Assembly (NCBI RefSeq): GCF_036492425.1
Contig: NZ_AP025293.1
Location: 248,001 to 312,000, forward strand
Source: Persicobacter psychrovividus
Lineage (GTDB): Bacteria; Bacteroidota; Bacteroidia; Cytophagales; Cyclobacteriaceae
Direction of reading: 5' to 3'
Length of the DNA: 64,000 bases
Both the position numbers and the translations under genes were made by a program. Under the pieces are notes generated by a model that worked only from the letters and a program-made list of their open reading frames with translations, was not told the origin of the DNA and did no database searches. This document shows, one piece after another, positions 48,111 through 61,048 of the stretch. Each line of letters starts with the position of its first letter. The first letter of the stretch is position 1.

Positions 48111-48573
48111 AGAAGGTGCAAAAGCGACACCTGTTGAAAGGTAACACGCAATGTCCGTATCCTCCGACACAAAATAATCAGCACGCTTGTACCCCTTCTG
48201 ATCAATCGTTTTTGAAAACGGCAAATGAGGCGCTTTTAATTTACGAATCAGCCACAGAAAGCCCTTTTCATTCCATTGACTGATGCTTTGGGGTCGGCAT
48301 AAAGTTAATCAGCAGACCATCAATTGATTTAGGATTGTTTTTAGTATCAGTTTACACTGATGGATTAAAAACGCAAAATCATATAAATATTACTTGAGCA
48401 ACAATTTCTATCATTATCCTAATTTACGAATCGAAAGAGAATAGCACGCCATGAATAAATAATACTTTTCGCTAAAGTATATGGATTCGGAAATCATCAG
48501 AGGGCTTGAGGTTAAATTAATTATACTTATAAAAGTATTAATGATATTTTTTCACTCAAACCCCATTTTTATA
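48111..48573. other. Leader region before the giant repeat protein
   Basis: About 460 bases with no clear gene. It contains a small perfect inverted repeat ATCAGT-TTAC-ACTGAT at 48346-48361. The last 93 bases are open in the same frame as the following gene (ATG 48481 and ATG 48541), but they do not look like coding sequence, and the signal peptide begins at 48574. Confidence 0.4.
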
Positions 48574-51500
48574 ATGCGAAAATGCCTACTCTTTATCTTG
48601 CTCAGTCTGCTCACCACTGCAGGCGCCTGGGCACAAACTGACCACACCCTGACCTTCGACGACATTACACTCGGAGAGGGAAACACCAAAAGCCACATTA
48701 TCGCCTGCTCCTATAACTTTGAGGCCAACCCATCGGGCACCAACCTGACCATCCCCGAGAAGGTTACCTTACCCGACGGTTCGGAGCAAGCCATTACCCA
48801 CGTGAGCAATGATGTTTTCAGTGGTAAGAATATTCACGCCCTTCACCTGGCGGAAGGCTTTAAACAAATTGGACAACGTGCCTTCCAAAACAATAAAATC
48901 AAGGTGCTAACATTGCCGCCCACTATCCGAACCATTGGTACAGATGGTTTCAGTAATAACCTGATTGAATCCTTGAATATCCCCGAGGCTTATACGACCA
49001 TTCAAAACGGGACTTTCGAAAACAACAAAATCACCACCTTAACCTTTACTGGTAATGCGATTACCAAAATCGGACAGCGTGCCTTTCAAAACAACCTGCT
49101 CACCAGCGTTACAATTCCTGCCAACAGCCCTTTGGCACTGATTGATCAGCTTGCTTTTGCGGGGAACAATTTACAACAATTGACGATTCCTGAAGGTACC
49201 GTTGAGCTTAAAATAGGGCAGAAATTCGTTGCCAACAACCCCATTGAATCTGTTGCCTTTCCTTCAAACCTCAACGAGGTACACGCCAATGTATTGGCCG
49301 ATTTAGATGACGGCAAACCTGGCTATACCCCTACGTGGTTTTCTGACGCTGGCCATAGTTCACCAATTCCTGCTTTTGACCTTGCCAACCTGCAAGGAAA
49401 AACTGCATATGCCAAATGGGACATCACAACGTACACCCTCACCTTTAATGGCTCTTCCAACCATGACAACCCCGAAACATATACCGTAAATGATGCCATC
49501 ACGCTCTCCCCTGCTCAGAAGGATGGATATAGTTTCGACGGGTGGTATGACAATGATCAATACACTGGGGAGCCCATCACCACAATTGCTGCTGGCACAA
49601 CGGGCAATCTTAAATTTTGGGCTAAACTGACCATTATTGATTACCCGATTACCTACCATCTGTTTGGAGGGGAAAATCATGACGACAACCCTGCGACCTA
49701 TAATACGGAGTCTGGTGCCATTCCGCTGGCGGATCCGACCCGTGAAAATGCCACTTTCGAGGGCTGGTTCGAAAATGAAAATTTTTCTGCAAGAAGGACT
49801 GAAATTCGCGGTGCATGGAGAAAGCCTTTAAGCCTGTATGCGAAATTCACCTCCGATGATTATGGGATTTCTTACGTGCTCAACGGCGGAGAAAACCATG
49901 CCGACAATCCTGCAATATATAATGCGGATTCAGATTTCAGCTTACAGCCTGCCACAAAATCAGGCCATACGTTTGTAGGATGGTATGCTACGGAGGATTT
50001 CAGCGGAGATCAGGTGGAACAAATTTCTGGTGCCGAGCTTAGTGGCGACATCATTCTATATGCCAAATTCACCATCATCGACTATACAGTCAGCTATGAA
50101 CTCAATGGCGGGGTGAACGATGATAATAACCCTGCTGATTACAATATCGAATCGGAAACCTTCACTTTGTTGCCTGCCACAAAAGATGGATACAACTTCA
50201 ATGGTTGGTTCGATAACGACGACAATAAAATTGAAGAAATCGCAAAAGGTTCAACAGGTGATATCAGCCTTAATGCACAGTTCACTATCATCGACTATAC
50301 AATCAGCTATGAACTCAATGGCGGGATGAACGACGATAACAACCCTACTGATTACAATATCGAATCGGAAACCTTCACCTTATTGCCTGCCACTAAAGAC
50401 GGATACAACTTCAATGGTTGGTTCGACAACGACGACAATAAAATTGAAGAAATCGCAAAAGGTTCAACAGGTGATATCAGCCTTAATGCACAGTTCACTA
50501 TCATCGACTATACAATCAGCTATGAACTCAATGGCGGGGTGAACGATGATAATAACCCTGCTGATTACAATATCGAATCGGAAACCTTCACTTTATTGCC
50601 CGCCACAAAAGATGGTTACAACTTCAATGGTTGGTTCGACAACGACGACAATAAAATTGAAGAAATCGCAAAAGGTTCAACAGGTGATATCAGCCTTAAT
50701 GCACAGTTCGCACCCATCAATTATGCCATCAGCTATGTATTGAATGGCGGGATGAACGATGACAACAACCCGGTAGAATACAATATTGAAACCGAGACTT
50801 TCAACTTGTTGCCTGCCACGAAAATCGGATTCGGATTCGACGGATGGTTCGACAATGAAACTTTTACAGGAACGCCAATAACCACCATCAGCAAAGGATC
50901 GATGGGGGAAATTGACCTCTATGCAAAATTCACTGCTGGAGCATACACCATCAATTACAACCTCAACGGTGGAGTAAATCATCAGGACAATCCGAATACG
51001 TACACTACGGAAACAGAAACCTTCACTTTGTTGCCCGCCACAAAAGATGGATACAACTTCAATGGTTGGTTCGACAACAACGACAATAAAATTGAAGAAA
51101 TCGCAAAAGGTTCAACAGGTGACATCAGCCTTAATGCACAGTTCGCACCTATCAATTATGCCATCAGCTATGTTTTGAATGGTGGCATGAACGACGATAA
51201 CAACCCTGTAGAATACAATATTGAGACCGAGACTTTCAACTTATTGCCTGCCACGAAAATCGGATTCGGATTCGACGGATGGTTCGACAATGAAACTTTT
51301 ACAGGAGCGCCAATAACCACCATCAGCAAAGGATCGATGGGAGAAATTGACCTCTATGCAAAATTCACCGCTGGAGCATACACCATCAATTACAACCTCA
51401 ACGGTGGAGTAAATCATCAGGACAATCCGAATACGTACACTACGGAAACAGAAACCTTCACTTTGTTGCCTGCCACAAAAGATGGATACAACTTCAATGG

Positions 51501-52446
51501 TTGGTTCGACAACGACGACAATAAAATTGAAGAAATCGCAAAAGGTTCAACAGGTGACATCAGCCTTAATGCACAGTTCACACCCATCAATTATGCCATC
51601 AGCTATGTATTGAATGGCGGCATGAACGATGATAACAACATTGTTCATTACAACATCGAGTCAGCAACTTTCGCTTTGTTGCCTGCCACGAAAGATGGTT
51701 ACAACTTCGACGGATGGTATGATCAAAACGACCAAATGATCACTGAAATTACCGCGGGATCGATGGGGGACATCACTTTAACCGCTGGCTTCTCGACGAT
51801 CAGTTACACCATCAATTATCAACTGAATGGCGGTGCGAATGATAGCGGAAACCCTGCTAACTACAACATCGAGTCAGCAACTTTCGCTTTGTTGCCTGCC
51901 ACCAAAGACGGTTACACCTTCGACGGGTGGTATGATCAAAACGACCAAATGGTTACTGAAATTACCGCGGGGTCAATGGGTGACATCACTTTGACCGCTG
52001 GCTTCTCGACGATCAACTATACCATCAATTATGTATTGAATGGCGGTATGAACGATGATAACAACATTGTTCATTACAACATCGAATCAGCTACTTTCAC
52101 TTTGTTGCCTGCCACAAAAGACGGTTACAACTTCGACGGGTGGTATGATCAAAACAACCAAATGGTTACTGAAATTACCGCGGGATCGATGGGTGACATC
52201 ACACTGACCGCTGGCTTCTCGACGATCAGTTACACCATCAATTATCAACTGAATGGCGGTATGAACGATAGCGGAAACCCTGCTAACTACAACATCGAAT
52301 CAGCAACTTTCGCTTTGTTGCCTGCCACGAAAGATGGTTACAACTTCGACGGATGGTATGATCAAAACGACCAAATGGTTACTGAAATTACCGCGGGATC
52401 GATGGGTGACATCACACTGACCGCTGGCTTCTCGACGATCAGTTAA
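48574..52446 (+). CDS. Giant secreted BspA-LRR/InlB-B-repeat protein, N-terminal part up to an in-frame TAA
   Basis: The first part of a roughly 2,000-residue gene broken by one stop codon. From ATG 48574 it has a signal peptide (MRKCLLFILLS...GAWA|Q), a BspA-like leucine-rich block (about residues 30-270, with repeats such as FKQIGQRAFQNNKI), then 14 complete InlB-B/Flg_new repeats of about 71-74 residues (for example YELNGG...NFNGWFDN..). It ends at TAA 52444-52446, where every neighbouring repeat has TAC or TAT (Tyr of TISYTINY). The frame continues directly after the stop. Earlier in-frame ATGs at 48481 and 48541 precede the signal peptide and are less likely. As read, the product would be exported but lack its T9SS sorting tail. 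Such proteins are adhesin-like surface or secreted proteins. Confidence 0.85.
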   Translation: MRKCLLFILLSLLTTAGAWAQTDHTLTFDDITLGEGNTKSHIIACSYNFEANPSGTNLTIPEKVTLPDGSEQAITHVSNDVFSGKNIHALHLAEGFKQIGQRAFQNNKIKVLTLPPTIRTIGTDGFSNNLIESLNIPEAYTTIQNGTFENNKITTLTFTGNAITKIGQRAFQNNLLTSVTIPANSPLALIDQLAFAGNNLQQLTIPEGTVELKIGQKFVANNPIESVAFPSNLNEVHANVLADLDDGKPGYTPTWFSDAGHSSPIPAFDLANLQGKTAYAKWDITTYTLTFNGSSNHDNPETYTVNDAITLSPAQKDGYSFDGWYDNDQYTGEPITTIAAGTTGNLKFWAKLTIIDYPITYHLFGGENHDDNPATYNTESGAIPLADPTRENATFEGWFENENFSARRTEIRGAWRKPLSLYAKFTSDDYGISYVLNGGENHADNPAIYNADSDFSLQPATKSGHTFVGWYATEDFSGDQVEQISGAELSGDIILYAKFTIIDYTVSYELNGGVNDDNNPADYNIESETFTLLPATKDGYNFNGWFDNDDNKIEEIAKGSTGDISLNAQFTIIDYTISYELNGGMNDDNNPTDYNIESETFTLLPATKDGYNFNGWFDNDDNKIEEIAKGSTGDISLNAQFTIIDYTISYELNGGVNDDNNPADYNIESETFTLLPATKDGYNFNGWFDNDDNKIEEIAKGSTGDISLNAQFAPINYAISYVLNGGMNDDNNPVEYNIETETFNLLPATKIGFGFDGWFDNETFTGTPITTISKGSMGEIDLYAKFTAGAYTINYNLNGGVNHQDNPNTYTTETETFTLLPATKDGYNFNGWFDNNDNKIEEIAKGSTGDISLNAQFAPINYAISYVLNGGMNDDNNPVEYNIETETFNLLPATKIGFGFDGWFDNETFTGAPITTISKGSMGEIDLYAKFTAGAYTINYNLNGGVNHQDNPNTYTTETETFTLLPATKDGYNFNGWFDNDDNKIEEIAKGSTGDISLNAQFTPINYAISYVLNGGMNDDNNIVHYNIESATFALLPATKDGYNFDGWYDQNDQMITEITAGSMGDITLTAGFSTISYTINYQLNGGANDSGNPANYNIESATFALLPATKDGYTFDGWYDQNDQMVTEITAGSMGDITLTAGFSTINYTINYVLNGGMNDDNNIVHYNIESATFTLLPATKDGYNFDGWYDQNNQMVTEITAGSMGDITLTAGFSTISYTINYQLNGGMNDSGNPANYNIESATFALLPATKDGYNFDGWYDQNDQMVTEITAGSMGDITLTAGFSTIS

Positions 52447-54360
52447 ACTATCAATTATGAACTCAATGGCGGTATGAACGATAGCGGAAACCCTGCTAAC
52501 TACAACATTGAATCAGCAACTTTCACTTTGTTGCCTGCTACAAAAGATGGTTACAACTTCGACGGATGGTATGATCAAAACAACCAAATGGTTACTGAAA
52601 TTACCGCGGGATCGATGGGTGATATCACTTTGACCGCTGGCTTCTCGACGATCAGTTACACCATCAATTATGAATTGAATGGCGGTATGAACGATAGTGG
52701 AAACCCTGCTAACTACAACATCGAATCAGCTACTTTCGCTTTGTTGCCTGCCACAAAAGACGGATACAACTTCGACGGATGGTATGATCAAAACAACCAA
52801 ATGGTTACTGAAATTACCGCGGGATCATTGGGTGACATCACTTTGACCGCTGGCTTCTCGACGATCAGCTATGCCATCAATTATCAACTGAATGGCGGTG
52901 CGAATGATAGCGGAAACCCTGCTAACTACAACATCGAATCAGCAACTTTCTCTTTGTTGCCTGCCACGAAAGACGGTTACAACTTCGACGGATGGTATGA
53001 TCAAAACGACCAAATGATCACTGAAATTACCGCGGGATCGATGGGTGACATCACACTGACCGCTGGCTTCTCGACGATCAGTTACACTATCAATTATGAA
53101 CTCAATGGCGGTATGAACGATGATAACAACATTGTTCATTACAACATCGAATCAGCAACTTTCGCTTTGTTGCCTGCCACGAAAGATGGTTACAACTTCG
53201 ACGGATGGTATGATCAAAACAACCAAATGGTTACTGAAATTACCGCGGGATCAATGGGTGACATCACTTTGACCGCTGGCTTCTCGACGATCAGTTACAC
53301 CATTAATTATGAACTGAATGGCGGCATGAACGATGATAACAACATTGTTCATTACAACATCGAATCAGCAACTTTCACTTTGTTGCCTGCCACGAAAGAC
53401 GGTTACAACTTCGACGGATGGTATGATGAAAACAACCAAATGGTTACTGAAATTACCGCGGGATCGATGGGTGACATCACTTTAACCGCTGGCTTCTCGA
53501 CGATCAGTTACACCATCAATTATGAATTGAATGGTGGTCTGAACGATGGCGGAAACCCTGCTAACTACAACATCGAATCAGCAACCTTTGCTTTGTTGCC
53601 TGCCACAAAAGATGGTTACAACTTCGACGGATGGTATGATGAAAACGACCAAATGGTTACTGAAATTACCGCGGGGTCAATGGGTGACATCACTTTGACC
53701 GCTGGCTTCTCAACGATCAGTTACACCATCAATTATGAACTGAATGGTGGTATGAACGATAGCGGAAATCCTGCTAACTACAACATCGAATCAGCAACTT
53801 TCGCTTTGTTGCCTGCCACCAAAGATGGTTACAACTTCGACGGATGGTATGATGAAAACGACCAAATGGTTACTGAAATTACTGCGGGATCAATGGGTGA
53901 TATCACTTTGACCGCTGGCTTCTCGACGATCAGCTATGCCATCAATTATGAATTGAATGGTGGTGTTAATGCTGCTGAAAACCCTGCTGAATATACCCTC
54001 GCCGATGCATTTACCTTAGCGGATGCCGAAAAAACCGCTTATGACTTTATGGGCTGGTTTGATAATGCGGAATTTACAGGAGAGGCAATCACGGAGGTTA
54101 CGGCAGGTACAAGCGGTGCGCTGACGTTCCATGCGAAATTTGAAGCTACCGTTTATACGATCACGTATCATTTGGATGGTGGCGTGAACGATGGGGAAAA
54201 TCCTGAGGCTTATACTGTTAAGGAGACCATCACGCTGGCTGATGCACAAAAGGACGATTACACTTTCGAAGGATGGTATTTAAATGCCGACCTGACGGGC
54301 GATGCCGTGGTGGAGATTTCTGAAACTTCTGGTCATTTGGATTTATATGCCAAATTCCAA
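49423..54360 (+). repeat. Coding tandem array of 23 InlB-B/Flg_new repeats
   Basis: Twenty-three consecutive repeats of about 71-74 codons. Units 1-3 and 22-23 are diverged. Units 4-6 (from about 50083) are near copies of each other. Units 7-8 and 9-10 form a duplicated two-unit block of 435 bp (start positions about 50701 and 51136 in register). Units 11-21 are 213-bp copies in exact register (Tyr codon at 51592, 51805, 52231, 52444 as TAA, and on to 53722) with only scattered differences, alternating between DSGNPANY and DDNNIVHY versions. High identity in the core indicates recent amplification or gene conversion. Confidence 0.95.
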
Positions 54361-54600
54361 AAAGTACTCAATACTTCCGTTGCGCAGCAAAATGTGAAAA
54401 TCTTCCCGAACCCTGCAGCTGACCATATTTTCATTGAAGGTGGTGCAGGAAGTCAGGTGGTATTCTTTACCCCTGATGGAAAGGCCATGATGACCCAATC
54501 TTTGAGTCTGGCAACGCAACGCATCGACATCTCTACATTGTCTTCAGGACTGTACATCGTAAAAATCGACCATAAAGTGTTCAAGCTTTATATCCGATAA
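52474..54600 (+). CDS. C-terminal part of the giant repeat protein with T9SS sorting domain
   Basis: The 708-codon continuation of the broken repeat gene, in the same frame as the part before the stop (52444). The first ATG is inside repeat 15 (GGMNDSGNP) and is not a natural start, so this part is probably untranslated unless the stop is bypassed or corrected. It holds the rest of repeat 15, repeats 16-23, and a C-terminal T9SS type A sorting domain over about the last 75 residues (VKIFPNPAADHIFIEGG, SSGLYIVKIDHK, ending KLYIR). The sorting domain would send the intact protein through the type IX system to the surface. No signal peptide of its own. Classing this as the 3' piece of a disrupted gene is well supported. 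Confidence 0.8.
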   Translation: MNDSGNPANYNIESATFTLLPATKDGYNFDGWYDQNNQMVTEITAGSMGDITLTAGFSTISYTINYELNGGMNDSGNPANYNIESATFALLPATKDGYNFDGWYDQNNQMVTEITAGSLGDITLTAGFSTISYAINYQLNGGANDSGNPANYNIESATFSLLPATKDGYNFDGWYDQNDQMITEITAGSMGDITLTAGFSTISYTINYELNGGMNDDNNIVHYNIESATFALLPATKDGYNFDGWYDQNNQMVTEITAGSMGDITLTAGFSTISYTINYELNGGMNDDNNIVHYNIESATFTLLPATKDGYNFDGWYDENNQMVTEITAGSMGDITLTAGFSTISYTINYELNGGLNDGGNPANYNIESATFALLPATKDGYNFDGWYDENDQMVTEITAGSMGDITLTAGFSTISYTINYELNGGMNDSGNPANYNIESATFALLPATKDGYNFDGWYDENDQMVTEITAGSMGDITLTAGFSTISYAINYELNGGVNAAENPAEYTLADAFTLADAEKTAYDFMGWFDNAEFTGEAITEVTAGTSGALTFHAKFEATVYTITYHLDGGVNDGENPEAYTVKETITLADAQKDDYTFEGWYLNADLTGDAVVEISETSGHLDLYAKFQKVLNTSVAQQNVKIFPNPAADHIFIEGGAGSQVVFFTPDGKAMMTQSLSLATQRIDISTLSSGLYIVKIDHKVFKLYIR

Positions 54601-57017: not shown

Positions 57018-57878
57018 TTATTTATGGTGCGAGAACAACCAATCCATCAAGCCTGGGGTAGTAAACATTGGATCGTTCCATGGGCCGTGACCGATACCAG
57101 GGAATACGTCCTGTTTCACTTCCATCTTGGCATCCTTCATGGCTTGAACCATGTGGTTAGCATAGCTAATGTCCACTACTCCGTCGGCATCGCCGTGCAT
57201 AATACGGAAAGCCATTTTTGAACAATGATCAACAATATCCTGAGGATTTCCACCACCAGACATCACAACCGCCGCCGCAAAAGTTTTCGGCATACGGTAG
57301 CATAATTCATACGTACCCATGGCGCCTGAAGAGATTCCCATGGCATACATTTGCTTCGTATCGACAACCTTTTTTGCCTGAAGGTCATTCACCAATTTCA
57401 TTACTAATGATAAATACGGTGTTGGCTCCTCTTTATACTTCCAGAACCATTTCAATTTGTCTTTGCCCGCAACTTTGCTGTCCCAACGAGTGCTTGTAGG
57501 GCATTGTGGAAATACGACAATTGCCTGGTGCTGATTGCGGAAACCATCTTCCAAAAAGAAAGCCCCTCCGTTACTCAGCTGGCGTTGATTGTCGTTGCCG
57601 CGTTCCCCCAAACCATGCAGTACCACAATCAATGGGTATTGCTTTGCAGGGTCGTAGTTTTTCGGAAACAGCATACGGTAATTCAGGCTGCCTTCAGTCC
57701 CTTCAAAAACCTTGTCATAATACTGATCCATAGGTGTTTTAAGGATTCTGTCGTAAGGCAGATAAGAAGTAACAGGATTAGAAAGCGGCTTTACCACCTC
57801 CTGAATTGGGCTGTCCTCTTTAGATGTACAACTCATAAAAGCGCACACCATCATGGCCAAAGCTAATAATTTTTTCAT
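57018..57878 (-). CDS. Esterase lipoprotein of the alpha/beta-hydrolase fold, cassette A
   Basis: This 286-residue protein has a lipobox (FMSC, Cys 17). The alpha/beta-hydrolase parts are LIVVLHGLGERGNDN (oxyanion region), GISSGAMG (Ser 183 nucleophile, GxSxG), HGDADGVVD (acid) and GIGHGPW (His). It belongs with the PHB-depolymerase/LpqC-like and feruloyl-esterase-like group often found with glycosidases, so it probably removes acetyl or feruloyl groups from a polysaccharide. It lies 13 bases after a LamG lipoprotein. It is closely similar to the esterase at 59101-59979; at the DNA level a stretch near its end (about 57060-57100) matches 59144-59185 almost base for base. Confidence 0.88.
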   Translation of the reverse strand: MKKLLALAMMVCAFMSCTSKEDSPIQEVVKPLSNPVTSYLPYDRILKTPMDQYYDKVFEGTEGSLNYRMLFPKNYDPAKQYPLIVVLHGLGERGNDNQRQLSNGGAFFLEDGFRNQHQAIVVFPQCPTSTRWDSKVAGKDKLKWFWKYKEEPTPYLSLVMKLVNDLQAKKVVDTKQMYAMGISSGAMGTYELCYRMPKTFAAAVVMSGGGNPQDIVDHCSKMAFRIMHGDADGVVDISYANHMVQAMKDAKMEVKQDVFPGIGHGPWNDPMFTTPGLMDWLFSHHK

Positions 57879-57891
57879 AACAGTATTGCGA

Positions 57892-58971
57892 TTATTTATT
57901 GTTGAACAGTTGAGAAACGTCGTCTGCAGAAAGGGTGGCGTTATAGATCTTCACATTGTCGATCTGCCCTGTTGCAGTGCCATATTTGTAACGGTTGTAA
58001 TTCGGTAAGCCCGAGCCGATCGTCAATTTGGTCACCGATTTCCAGTTGATCTCCGAAGACATTTTGTTGGTTACCGACAACTCCCCGTTCACATACATTT
58101 TCAATTGCCCTTTACCGATCGTCAAAACAATATGATCCCAGCTATTGAGTGAGAAAGGATGGCTGTGAACGATGGTAGAACCACCCGAAGCACTTTTTGC
58201 GGAAGAGCCACACCAGGTATCGCCATTCACCATACCAATATTGGCACTGTATCCCTTATCGCGTTTCAGTACCGCTACACCGTTAAATGCCTGGGCATCG
58301 TCGCCCCAAAGGGTTACTAAAGCCGCACGACCTTTTTGCGCAGGATCGTTTTTGTACCATAAAGAAATCGTCATGGCCTGATCTTTATCGGCCATCCATT
58401 TCGCACCGCTCACATCATAGGTCAGGTAGCTGTTTTCTGCTCCCTGATATGCCTGGCTCGCTGGCGAATGTCCCTGAGCAAAAGTGATTGGCCCAACCGC
58501 TGTGGCCTTCAGCCCACCGTTAAGATCATCGGCCTTCTTGCCCTCAAAATCAGTCTCAAACACCAACCCTGGCTTTTTGTACTTACTGACCGTCACAGGA
58601 ATCTCCAAAGTATCCAACTGCCCATCTTTGCCCTCAACAATAGCCAAAAAAGTATGGTCTCCAGCAGACTGCACCCCAAGGTCGAAGCTGAATTCTGCGA
58701 TTTCACTATTGAGGAACTTGTTGCGCTCCTGCACCTTATCGCCGTCAATTACACGAATATCTTTCAGCCCTAAACTTGCTTGCCCACGAAGCTCAAGAAT
58801 CAATTTATCGTGATCAGTAACATTGAGCTGATCCTGATTCAATAGTGTGGTTTTTACAATGCCTGTCTCCTTTTGTATCGGAGTCGGATCATCGCTGGTA
58901 GAACACGCACACATCATTGCGATCAATGATGTTGTGGTAAAAACGCTACCCAATAGTTTTACTTTAGTCAT
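57892..58971 (-). CDS. LamG-domain lipoprotein, cassette A
   Basis: This 359-residue protein has a signal peptide with a lipobox near Cys 23 (MMCACS). An N-terminal region of about 100 residues (LLNQDQLNVTDHDKLILELRGQ and following) has an Ig-like beta pattern. A laminin-G/concanavalin-like domain follows over about 135-358, with VVLTIGKGQLKMYVNGEL-type and TGQIDNVKIYNATLSADDV signatures. It has no recognisable catalytic residues, so glycan binding at the cell surface is the likely role. It is paired with the esterase 13 bases downstream and is a paralog of the protein at 60002-61048. Confidence 0.85.
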   Translation of the reverse strand: MTKVKLLGSVFTTTSLIAMMCACSTSDDPTPIQKETGIVKTTLLNQDQLNVTDHDKLILELRGQASLGLKDIRVIDGDKVQERNKFLNSEIAEFSFDLGVQSAGDHTFLAIVEGKDGQLDTLEIPVTVSKYKKPGLVFETDFEGKKADDLNGGLKATAVGPITFAQGHSPASQAYQGAENSYLTYDVSGAKWMADKDQAMTISLWYKNDPAQKGRAALVTLWGDDAQAFNGVAVLKRDKGYSANIGMVNGDTWCGSSAKSASGGSTIVHSHPFSLNSWDHIVLTIGKGQLKMYVNGELSVTNKMSSEINWKSVTKLTIGSGLPNYNRYKYGTATGQIDNVKIYNATLSADDVSQLFNNK

Positions 58972-59100: not shown

Positions 59101-59979
59101 TTACAGATGGTGCGAGAACAACCAATCCATTAGGCCTGGCTCTTTGAACATTGGATCGTTCCATGGGCCGTGACCGATACCGTGGTAAGTGTTGCGTACC
59201 ACTTCGATATTGGCTGCTTTCAATGCTGCTTCCATGCGGTCGGCATAGGCAGGATCTACTACGTTGTCGGCATCGCCATGCATGATGCGGAAGGCCATGT
59301 GTGAACATTTGGCAACAATATCTTTAGGATTTCCCCCACCAGACATGTAGTAACCGGCAGCAAAAGTATTTGGCATGCGGTAAGAAATTTCATAGGCAGT
59401 CATACAACCCATTGAAATTCCACCAACATAACATCTGCTTTTGTCCACAATACCACTGTTGTTAATGAAGTCTTTGGTGAAGTCCATCAACATGGCCAAC
59501 TGATGGTTCGGTGCCTTGTCATAAGTCCAGTACCAGTCTTTTTTCTTGGTGGTATAATGTTCCTTGCCTGATCCGGGCATCACTTTGGAATCCCAACGGT
59601 AGCCACGTGGACATTGTGGGAACACGACGATCGCAGGGTGATTTTTGCGGAAGTCTTCATTCAAAAAGAATTTACCGCCATTGTTCAATTGGCTGGCGTT
59701 ATTGCTGCCGCACTCTCCCATTCCGTGGATCATCAAGATCATTGGGTATTTTTTGTGCGGATCAAAATTTTCAGGATACAACACACGGTATTGCATAATA
59801 CCATCCTTATTGATGTAAACCTTGTGCAGGTAATTGTCCAGAGGTTTTTTCACTTCCTGCTGATATGGCAGGTAGGAAGTTTTTGCCTCAACAATCGAGC
59901 TTTCTTTTTTTTGCTCAGGTTTAGGGCTGCAGCTCGCCAAGGCGATGATCAGCAATACGATTCCGCTAAGATATTTCAT
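59101..59979 (-). CDS. Esterase lipoprotein, cassette B
   Basis: This 292-residue protein has a lipobox (LASC near residue 18) and the same esterase motifs as the cassette A enzyme: MIHGMGECGSNN, GISMGCM (Ser nucleophile), HGDADNVVD and GIGHGPW. An insertion of about 10 residues (KVMPGSGKEHYTTKKKDW) before the lid region separates it from cassette A, so the substrate may differ. It lies 22 bases after its LamG partner. Cassette A and B proteins align end to end, including the lead-in SYLPYQ/SYLPYD, which shows tandem duplication. Confidence 0.88.
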   Translation of the reverse strand: MKYLSGIVLLIIALASCSPKPEQKKESSIVEAKTSYLPYQQEVKKPLDNYLHKVYINKDGIMQYRVLYPENFDPHKKYPMILMIHGMGECGSNNASQLNNGGKFFLNEDFRKNHPAIVVFPQCPRGYRWDSKVMPGSGKEHYTTKKKDWYWTYDKAPNHQLAMLMDFTKDFINNSGIVDKSRCYVGGISMGCMTAYEISYRMPNTFAAGYYMSGGGNPKDIVAKCSHMAFRIMHGDADNVVDPAYADRMEAALKAANIEVVRNTYHGIGHGPWNDPMFKEPGLMDWLFSHHL

Positions 59980-60001: not shown

Positions 60002-61048
60002 TTAGATTTTTGTAATATTCCTTACATCTTCTGCCGAAAGCGTTGAATTGAAAATCTTTACATGATCAATGCTTCCTGTGGCGGTCTGATAGTTAAATCG
60101 TTTATAATTAGGCAATCCCGATCCTATGGACAAGGTATTCACATTGCGCCAATCAATTTTATGATGAAGGTCATTCTGTACTGCCAAAACCCCATTGACA
60201 TATAATTTCAGCATTTTGGGACTGACCGTCAGCACCACATGATCCCAGCCATTTTTACTGAAAGGCATATCATGGATAATTTCGGAACCCCCCGAAGGCG
60301 TTTGTGCAGAAGCACCACACCAGGTATCGCCTGCCACAGTACCAATATTGGCCGTATAGCCATTTTCCCGACGCATTAACGTGATGCCCTGCAATCCTTT
60401 TGATGCCCACATACTGAGTATCGCCTCCCGATTGGTCGCTTTAGCGGCGCATTTATACCAAAAGGAAATCGACAGGCGGCTGCCCTTCCAGTTCACCGAC
60501 GAAATATCATAGGTCAGGTAACTGCGGATATTTCCCCGATAGGCCGAAGAGTGCAGGCCCTTCACCCCACGGGTAAATTGTGGACGGCCCTTAATTTTAG
60601 CCTTTAAAAACCCTTTGATGTCGTTCACCTGATGGTGATCAAAATCTACATGAAATACCAGCTTGGGCTTTTTATATTCGCACACGGGCAAATCGAAAGA
60701 AAGGGAATCCACCTGTCCATGGATATTTTCAGTAAGGCCCAATAGGTGGTGCTCCCCCGCAGGCAGCTTACCGATATCGAAAGTGAATTCCGCAATATGC
60801 GGATTCATAAAATGGCGCCTTTGCCCCAACACTTTCTTCCCTTCTAAAATCTTGATGGCCTTCAGCCCCGACACCGACTCCCCACGCAAATCCACCGATA
60901 CCTCATCATGGTTATTGAAATCAAAATCTGCCTTATTGAGCACGCTTGTTTTTAAAAATGGGTCCGATTGCTGACGGGAACACCCCATCACGATGGCCCC
61001 CATCAAACAGACGGCTACGAATTGAATAAAGCAATTGATTTTGTTCAT
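60002..61048 (-). CDS. LamG-domain lipoprotein, cassette B
   Basis: This 348-residue protein has a lipobox (VMGC near residue 23) and the same plan as its paralog: an N-terminal beta region with VLNKADFDFNNHDEVSVDLRGE, then a LamG-like domain (about 130-345; WCGASAQTPSGGSEIIH, LKLYVNGVLAVQ, GSIDHVKIFNSTLSAEDV). It has no apparent enzyme site, so it is probably a surface glycan-binding protein. It starts 55 bases after the esterase of the GH144 pair and ends 22 bases before the cassette B esterase, in one probable operon. Confidence 0.85.
   Translation of the reverse strand: MNKINCFIQFVAVCLMGAIVMGCSRQQSDPFLKTSVLNKADFDFNNHDEVSVDLRGESVSGLKAIKILEGKKVLGQRRHFMNPHIAEFTFDIGKLPAGEHHLLGLTENIHGQVDSLSFDLPVCEYKKPKLVFHVDFDHHQVNDIKGFLKAKIKGRPQFTRGVKGLHSSAYRGNIRSYLTYDISSVNWKGSRLSISFWYKCAAKATNREAILSMWASKGLQGITLMRRENGYTANIGTVAGDTWCGASAQTPSGGSEIIHDMPFSKNGWDHVVLTVSPKMLKLYVNGVLAVQNDLHHKIDWRNVNTLSIGSGLPNYKRFNYQTATGSIDHVKIFNSTLSAEDVRNITKI

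Follow-up and report, generated by a model that had tools for sequence, protein, structure and literature searches.

Very probably, an ordinary and recent nonsense mutation (Tyr to stop) in one lineage of Persicobacter psychrovividus has broken the gene of a T9SS-secreted, adhesin-like protein. Judged from its sequence, the broken gene appears to have encoded a BspA-LRR/InlB-B-repeat protein of about 2,040 codons. It lies in a window of 64,000 nucleotides, the whole stretch of DNA that was analysed (G000:C2:248001-312000), within a genome of 6,148,614 bases in 13 contigs; the type strain of P. psychrovividus is listed with 6,148,614 bp in 13 replicons or scaffolds (Table 1 of PMC10645730). The gene comprises the following features, in window positions.

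48481..52446, + strand: 5' part of the split gene, an ORF that runs as far as the internal TAA (1321 aa when counted from its first ATG)
ATG at 48574, + strand: likelier start of the 5' part (1290 aa, signal-like N-terminus MRKCLLFILLSLLTTAGAWA)
49642..54153, + strand: repeat units 1-21 of 22, with the conserved Tyr as the first residue of each; unit 22 starts at 54154
51649-53964, + strand: tight 213-bp sub-array (tandem repeat)
52444..52446, + strand: in-frame TAA, first codon of unit 14 (TAC or TAT in the 21 other counted units)
52447..54600, + strand: 3' part, continuing the frame for 717 sense codons that hold the rest of the repeats and the T9SS tail
54400..54576, + strand: T9SS C-terminal sorting domain (Por_Secre_tail; PF18962, TIGR04183)

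Stop codon and reading frame

The TAA lies in the frame of the ORF opened at 48481, and 717 sense codons follow in that frame before the final stop, where it ends at 54600. The preliminary description had reported a continuation of 718 codons; the open frame is as described, but that count includes the final stop. The pattern is not a matter of chance: behind the TAA the frame stays open, with the same repeat, as far as the T9SS tail. The corresponding codon specifies Tyr in each of the 21 other units counted in the window, including the divergent ones, and the earlier statement that ten other in-register copies carry TAC or TAT holds for units 11-21 without unit 14. Likewise, a single base does separate the stop from a sibling unit: over their first 24 nt, units 14 and 17 differ by one base only, in the stop codon. 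No second copy of the 17-mer around the stop exists in the genome. Over the ORF, 743 of 18,342 single-base changes create a stop, and Tyr codons form the largest class.

Domain architecture of the two parts

Pfam searches place BspA-type LRR_5 and 14 stretches of Flg_new (the Listeria-Bacteroides repeat) in the 5' part, and nine stretches of Flg_new together with Por_Secre_tail in the 3' part. TIGR02543 repeats, found in both parts with NCBIfam, agree with PF09479 (Flg_new) and identify the repeat as the Listeria-Bacteroides (InlB B) type. The window gene holds 22 such units, counted by the motif L[NFD]GG; one Flg_new-like stretch ahead of unit 1 has no such motif and was left out. Among solved structures, only weak matches to InlB were found (InlB structure 2y5p, E 0.017).

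The T9SS sorting domain in which the frame had been said to end is indeed found in the C-terminal piece, with 33.4 bits for PF18962 (cut-off 27) and 33.7 bits, above cut-off, for TIGR04183. Both matches lie only behind the stop, so that the C-terminal Por_Secre_tail typical of a T9SS type A cargo is carried by the 3' part, and the Pfam search found no T9SS tail in the 5' part. A Sec-like signal sequence, judged by eye, begins at the ATG at 48574. The first ATG behind the stop, at 52474, opens an ORF of 708 aa, and no signal peptide was found at the N-terminus of the 3' part.

An open orthologue in a relative

A syntenic copy in an uncultured Persicobacter sp. (isolate 477; locus L009) forms a single ORF of 1968 aa, with 96.8-97.0% DNA identity to the window over two long blocks. 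All 21 units counted there have Tyr, bringing the total for the window and L009 together to 42 of 42 other units. A close relative thus has the gene unbroken at this locus, which is one mark of a pseudogene; the preliminary description had proposed comparing the locus elsewhere, and L009, the only relative found to have the gene, shows an open frame without the stop. The L009 gene is shorter by exactly 213 nt and its array has one unit fewer. Its contig is named NODE_11, a style that we take to be that of a short-read assembler, and the number of units there is less sure: the contig may have lost or merged one unit, and a stop might have gone unseen in a collapsed one.

The search of relatives covered 39 genomes including the window's own, and in 20 of the 38 others the 708-aa query has weak matches (best E 1.8e-6), most of them to the tail. 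The only match in a same-genus genome (G001, 91% complete) is 26% identical and spans query residues 561-696. Besides L009, a contig scan returned one clostridial locus (L010), which is only 29% identical and was set aside. When the plasmid collection was searched, megablast of window positions 40000-64000 gave no match, and tblastn of the 708-aa part gave 14 records, the best place in each being below 60% identity; Persicobacter sp. JZB09 is among these records (33.6% identity, 97% covered). The window's own genome has two open paralogues (C5, 921 aa, and C3, 1333 aa) with LRR_5, Flg_new and the tail, and the L009 genome contains a counterpart of the C5 paralogue.

Divergence from L009 is patchy downstream of the gene. 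The gene at 59101-59979, compared with L009:17480-18358, has a dS of 0.146, and the neighbouring genes at 57018-57878, 57892-58971 and 60002-61048 have values of 0.012-0.013. Possibly the gene has undergone recombination or conversion with its similar neighbour at 57018-57878.

The repeat array and the age of the stop

Only two periods, 213 and 435 bp, were reported for tandem repeats in the gene, and the 213-bp units match each other at about 91% on average. A comparison limited to offsets in multiples of 213 bp gave 44 exact in-register matches, 30 nt or longer and up to 81 nt, between places before and places after the stop. Six sampled 150-mers over the stop have at least four mismatches to every other place in the gene. 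In the L009 array (L009:11036-12313), units 14-16 and 17-19 partly resemble a three-unit duplication. The unit pairs there differ by 2 bases (q15/q18), 5 bases (q14/q17) and 15 bases (q16/q19); the first two pairs, being near-identical, are a sign of array turnover.

Relative to L009, codons 1-387 have a dN/dS of 0.086 and units 1-9 one of 0.083; for the last 221 codons, with 4 nonsynonymous and 9 synonymous differences, it is 0.125. Within the array the value is about 0.17 for units 14-20 versus 0.145 for units 10-13, with unit orthology blurred by rearrangement. On a neutral window branch alone, about 10 nonsynonymous differences would be expected in the last 221 codons, against the 4 observed on both branches (Poisson P about 0.03). 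This expectation uses the dS of codons 1-387; with the dS of the last 221 codons themselves it rises to 16 (P 0.0004). Unit 14 has no private base apart from the stop; in units 15-20 there are 3 nonsynonymous and 5 synonymous ones, and in units 10-13 there is 1, nonsynonymous. With no other private base in its unit and a low dN/dS both before and behind it, the stop looks recent, though there are few substitutions to judge by and the values inside the array lean slightly in the opposite direction.

T9SS-tail genes elsewhere in the genome

A PF18962 search of the genome gave 77 T9SS-tail frames, of which 70 have a signal-like N-terminus by a crude home-made rule. Among the seven without such a call, reading showed L087 and L101 to be signal-like with an ATG and L121 to be signal-like from a GTG; the other four are L056, which runs off its contig end, the window gene, and L070 and L094, each interrupted by an element. 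An in-frame stop ahead of the tail was sought in all 77 frames, and frameshifts were sought by reading in L070, L087, L094, L101 and L121; such a scan would overlook breaks within the tail itself, as well as frameshifts after which a signal-like stretch is still present. Alone among the 77, the window gene combines a long open stretch ahead of a stop (1,327 codons) with the lack of a signal-like N-terminus after it. In L125, 577 open codons precede a stop, but a signal-like N-terminus of its own follows. A TAA flagged inside the T9SS-tail match at C2:363064-363258 turned out to be the natural gene end, the same in the L009 genome.

The element in L070 and L094 is the same one, 1,496 bp long, its two copies being 99.67% identical. 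It has inverted ends and 8-bp target duplications (ACAATACC and GCTTATAG).

L094, BspA-like T9SS-tail gene: G000:C2:450314-455720, element at C2:451174-452669
L070, T9SS-tail gene: G000:C10:14231-20108, element at C10:15581-17076, duplication GCTTATAG

For the L094 gene, the L009 genome has the exact empty site, with a frame open for 1553 aa. Counting these two, the window's genome contains 11 copies of the element (at least 95% identity, nearly full length). At E 0.001, Pfam finds nothing in its 467-aa ORF (L094:916-2319), and the NCBIfam matches, to IS5 and IS6 transposases, all stay below cut-off; the element is perhaps a member of a poorly described IS group.

Alternative explanations

Could the strain in fact have Tyr, the wrong base having been set by assembly or polishing within the repeat? 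Reads of 2x150 do not easily resolve 213-bp units as similar as these, and the difference amounts to one base, absent from the one relative. Yet the excerpted text of PMC10645730 describes a hybrid assembly for the type strain, from PacBio RSII and HiSeq X data (Unicycler and/or HGAP with Pilon), so that Pilon is among the named tools. Moreover, substitution errors from repeat confusion would copy a sibling base, and no other counted unit has A at that place; cross-mapping therefore cannot supply it, and both the 150-mers over the stop and the unique 17-mer set this place apart. The assembly error that the preliminary description had listed is thus unlikely.

The same description had considered a reversible off state, in which the array would serve as a recombinational store: a stop parked in one unit would be deleted or converted by exchange between units, restoring the frame at appreciable frequency. 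The exact matches of up to 81 nt across the stop, the relative's array shorter by one unit and its near-identical unit pairs speak for exchange between units, and reversal is possible in principle. Unequal exchange could remove the stop, but any array of this sort allows as much, and that does not indicate a switch. The off step here is a base substitution and not a change in a hypermutable tract, the only tandem periods are the long ones given above, no short hypermutable tandem tract of the kind used in slipped-strand phase variation lies at the switch point, and the loss of a unit is no return switch. We regard such a switch as very unlikely. Programmed read-through or recoding of the TAA, giving some full-length protein, has been suggested too, and the intact frame with low dN/dS behind the stop would fit it; a recent mutation accounts for that frame equally well. 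TAA is generally a tight stop. The stop is moreover not conserved in the relative, where Tyr stands in every counted unit, and no other split by an in-frame stop was found among the 77 T9SS-tail frames, which leaves read-through hardly credible. There is scarcely any chance that the halves are separate working genes produced by fission, the second beginning at 52474. An ATG does occur as the tenth codon after the stop, but it encodes a Met of the repeat motif that is also present in 10 of the 21 other counted units; nothing signal-like stands at the N-terminus of the second half, though a T9SS tail needs Sec export, and the first half has no tail.

A recent nonsense mutation, also among the options of the preliminary description, is by comparison well supported by the open copy in L009, by Tyr in all other units of both arrays and by the stop being the sole private base of unit 14. 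This is a real but ordinary broken gene.

Consequences and comparison with known systems

Translation would end at the TAA. According to the parts of PMC4804311 consulted, the T9SS C-terminal domain is the signal for export across the outer membrane, and truncation of its last residues leaves gingipains in the periplasm; the stop in the window gene removes this needed domain, a further mark of a pseudogene. The N-terminal product, exported by Sec, should therefore reach the periplasm and be retained there, without crossing the outer membrane, because it lacks the T9SS signal. It had been proposed that this part is exported but not sorted to the surface: the Sec export fits, but the product should get no further than the periplasm. 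The C-terminal piece would either not be made or stay in the cytoplasm. The two open paralogues, which have the same architecture, may cover the loss.

The main bearing is on annotation: the pieces of this one broken gene would come out of a gene caller as two ORFs. The sequenced strain is probably without a surface protein that its relative keeps. Together with the two T9SS-tail genes interrupted by the element, this suggests that some surface-protein genes are being lost in the strain, perhaps in culture.

In its combination of LRR_5, Flg_new and Por_Secre_tail, the split gene resembles T9SS cargo with BspA-type LRR and Listeria-Bacteroides repeats, as represented by the two open paralogues. 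It differs from them in being larger (about 2,040 codons, 22 counted units) and in being split by a stop. Work cited in the inlA literature reportedly deals, by its title, with a truncated, secreted internalin A. The premature stops of Listeria monocytogenes inlA, as described in the excerpted text of PMC5131979, are alike in that a nonsense mutation cuts an LRR and B-repeat surface protein before its anchoring end. The Persicobacter case concerns one strain only and is known from sequence alone. Listeria is Gram-positive and anchors the protein by LPXTG, so that the truncated form is released, whereas the Gram-negative Persicobacter loses the T9SS signal, and its product should be retained in the periplasm.
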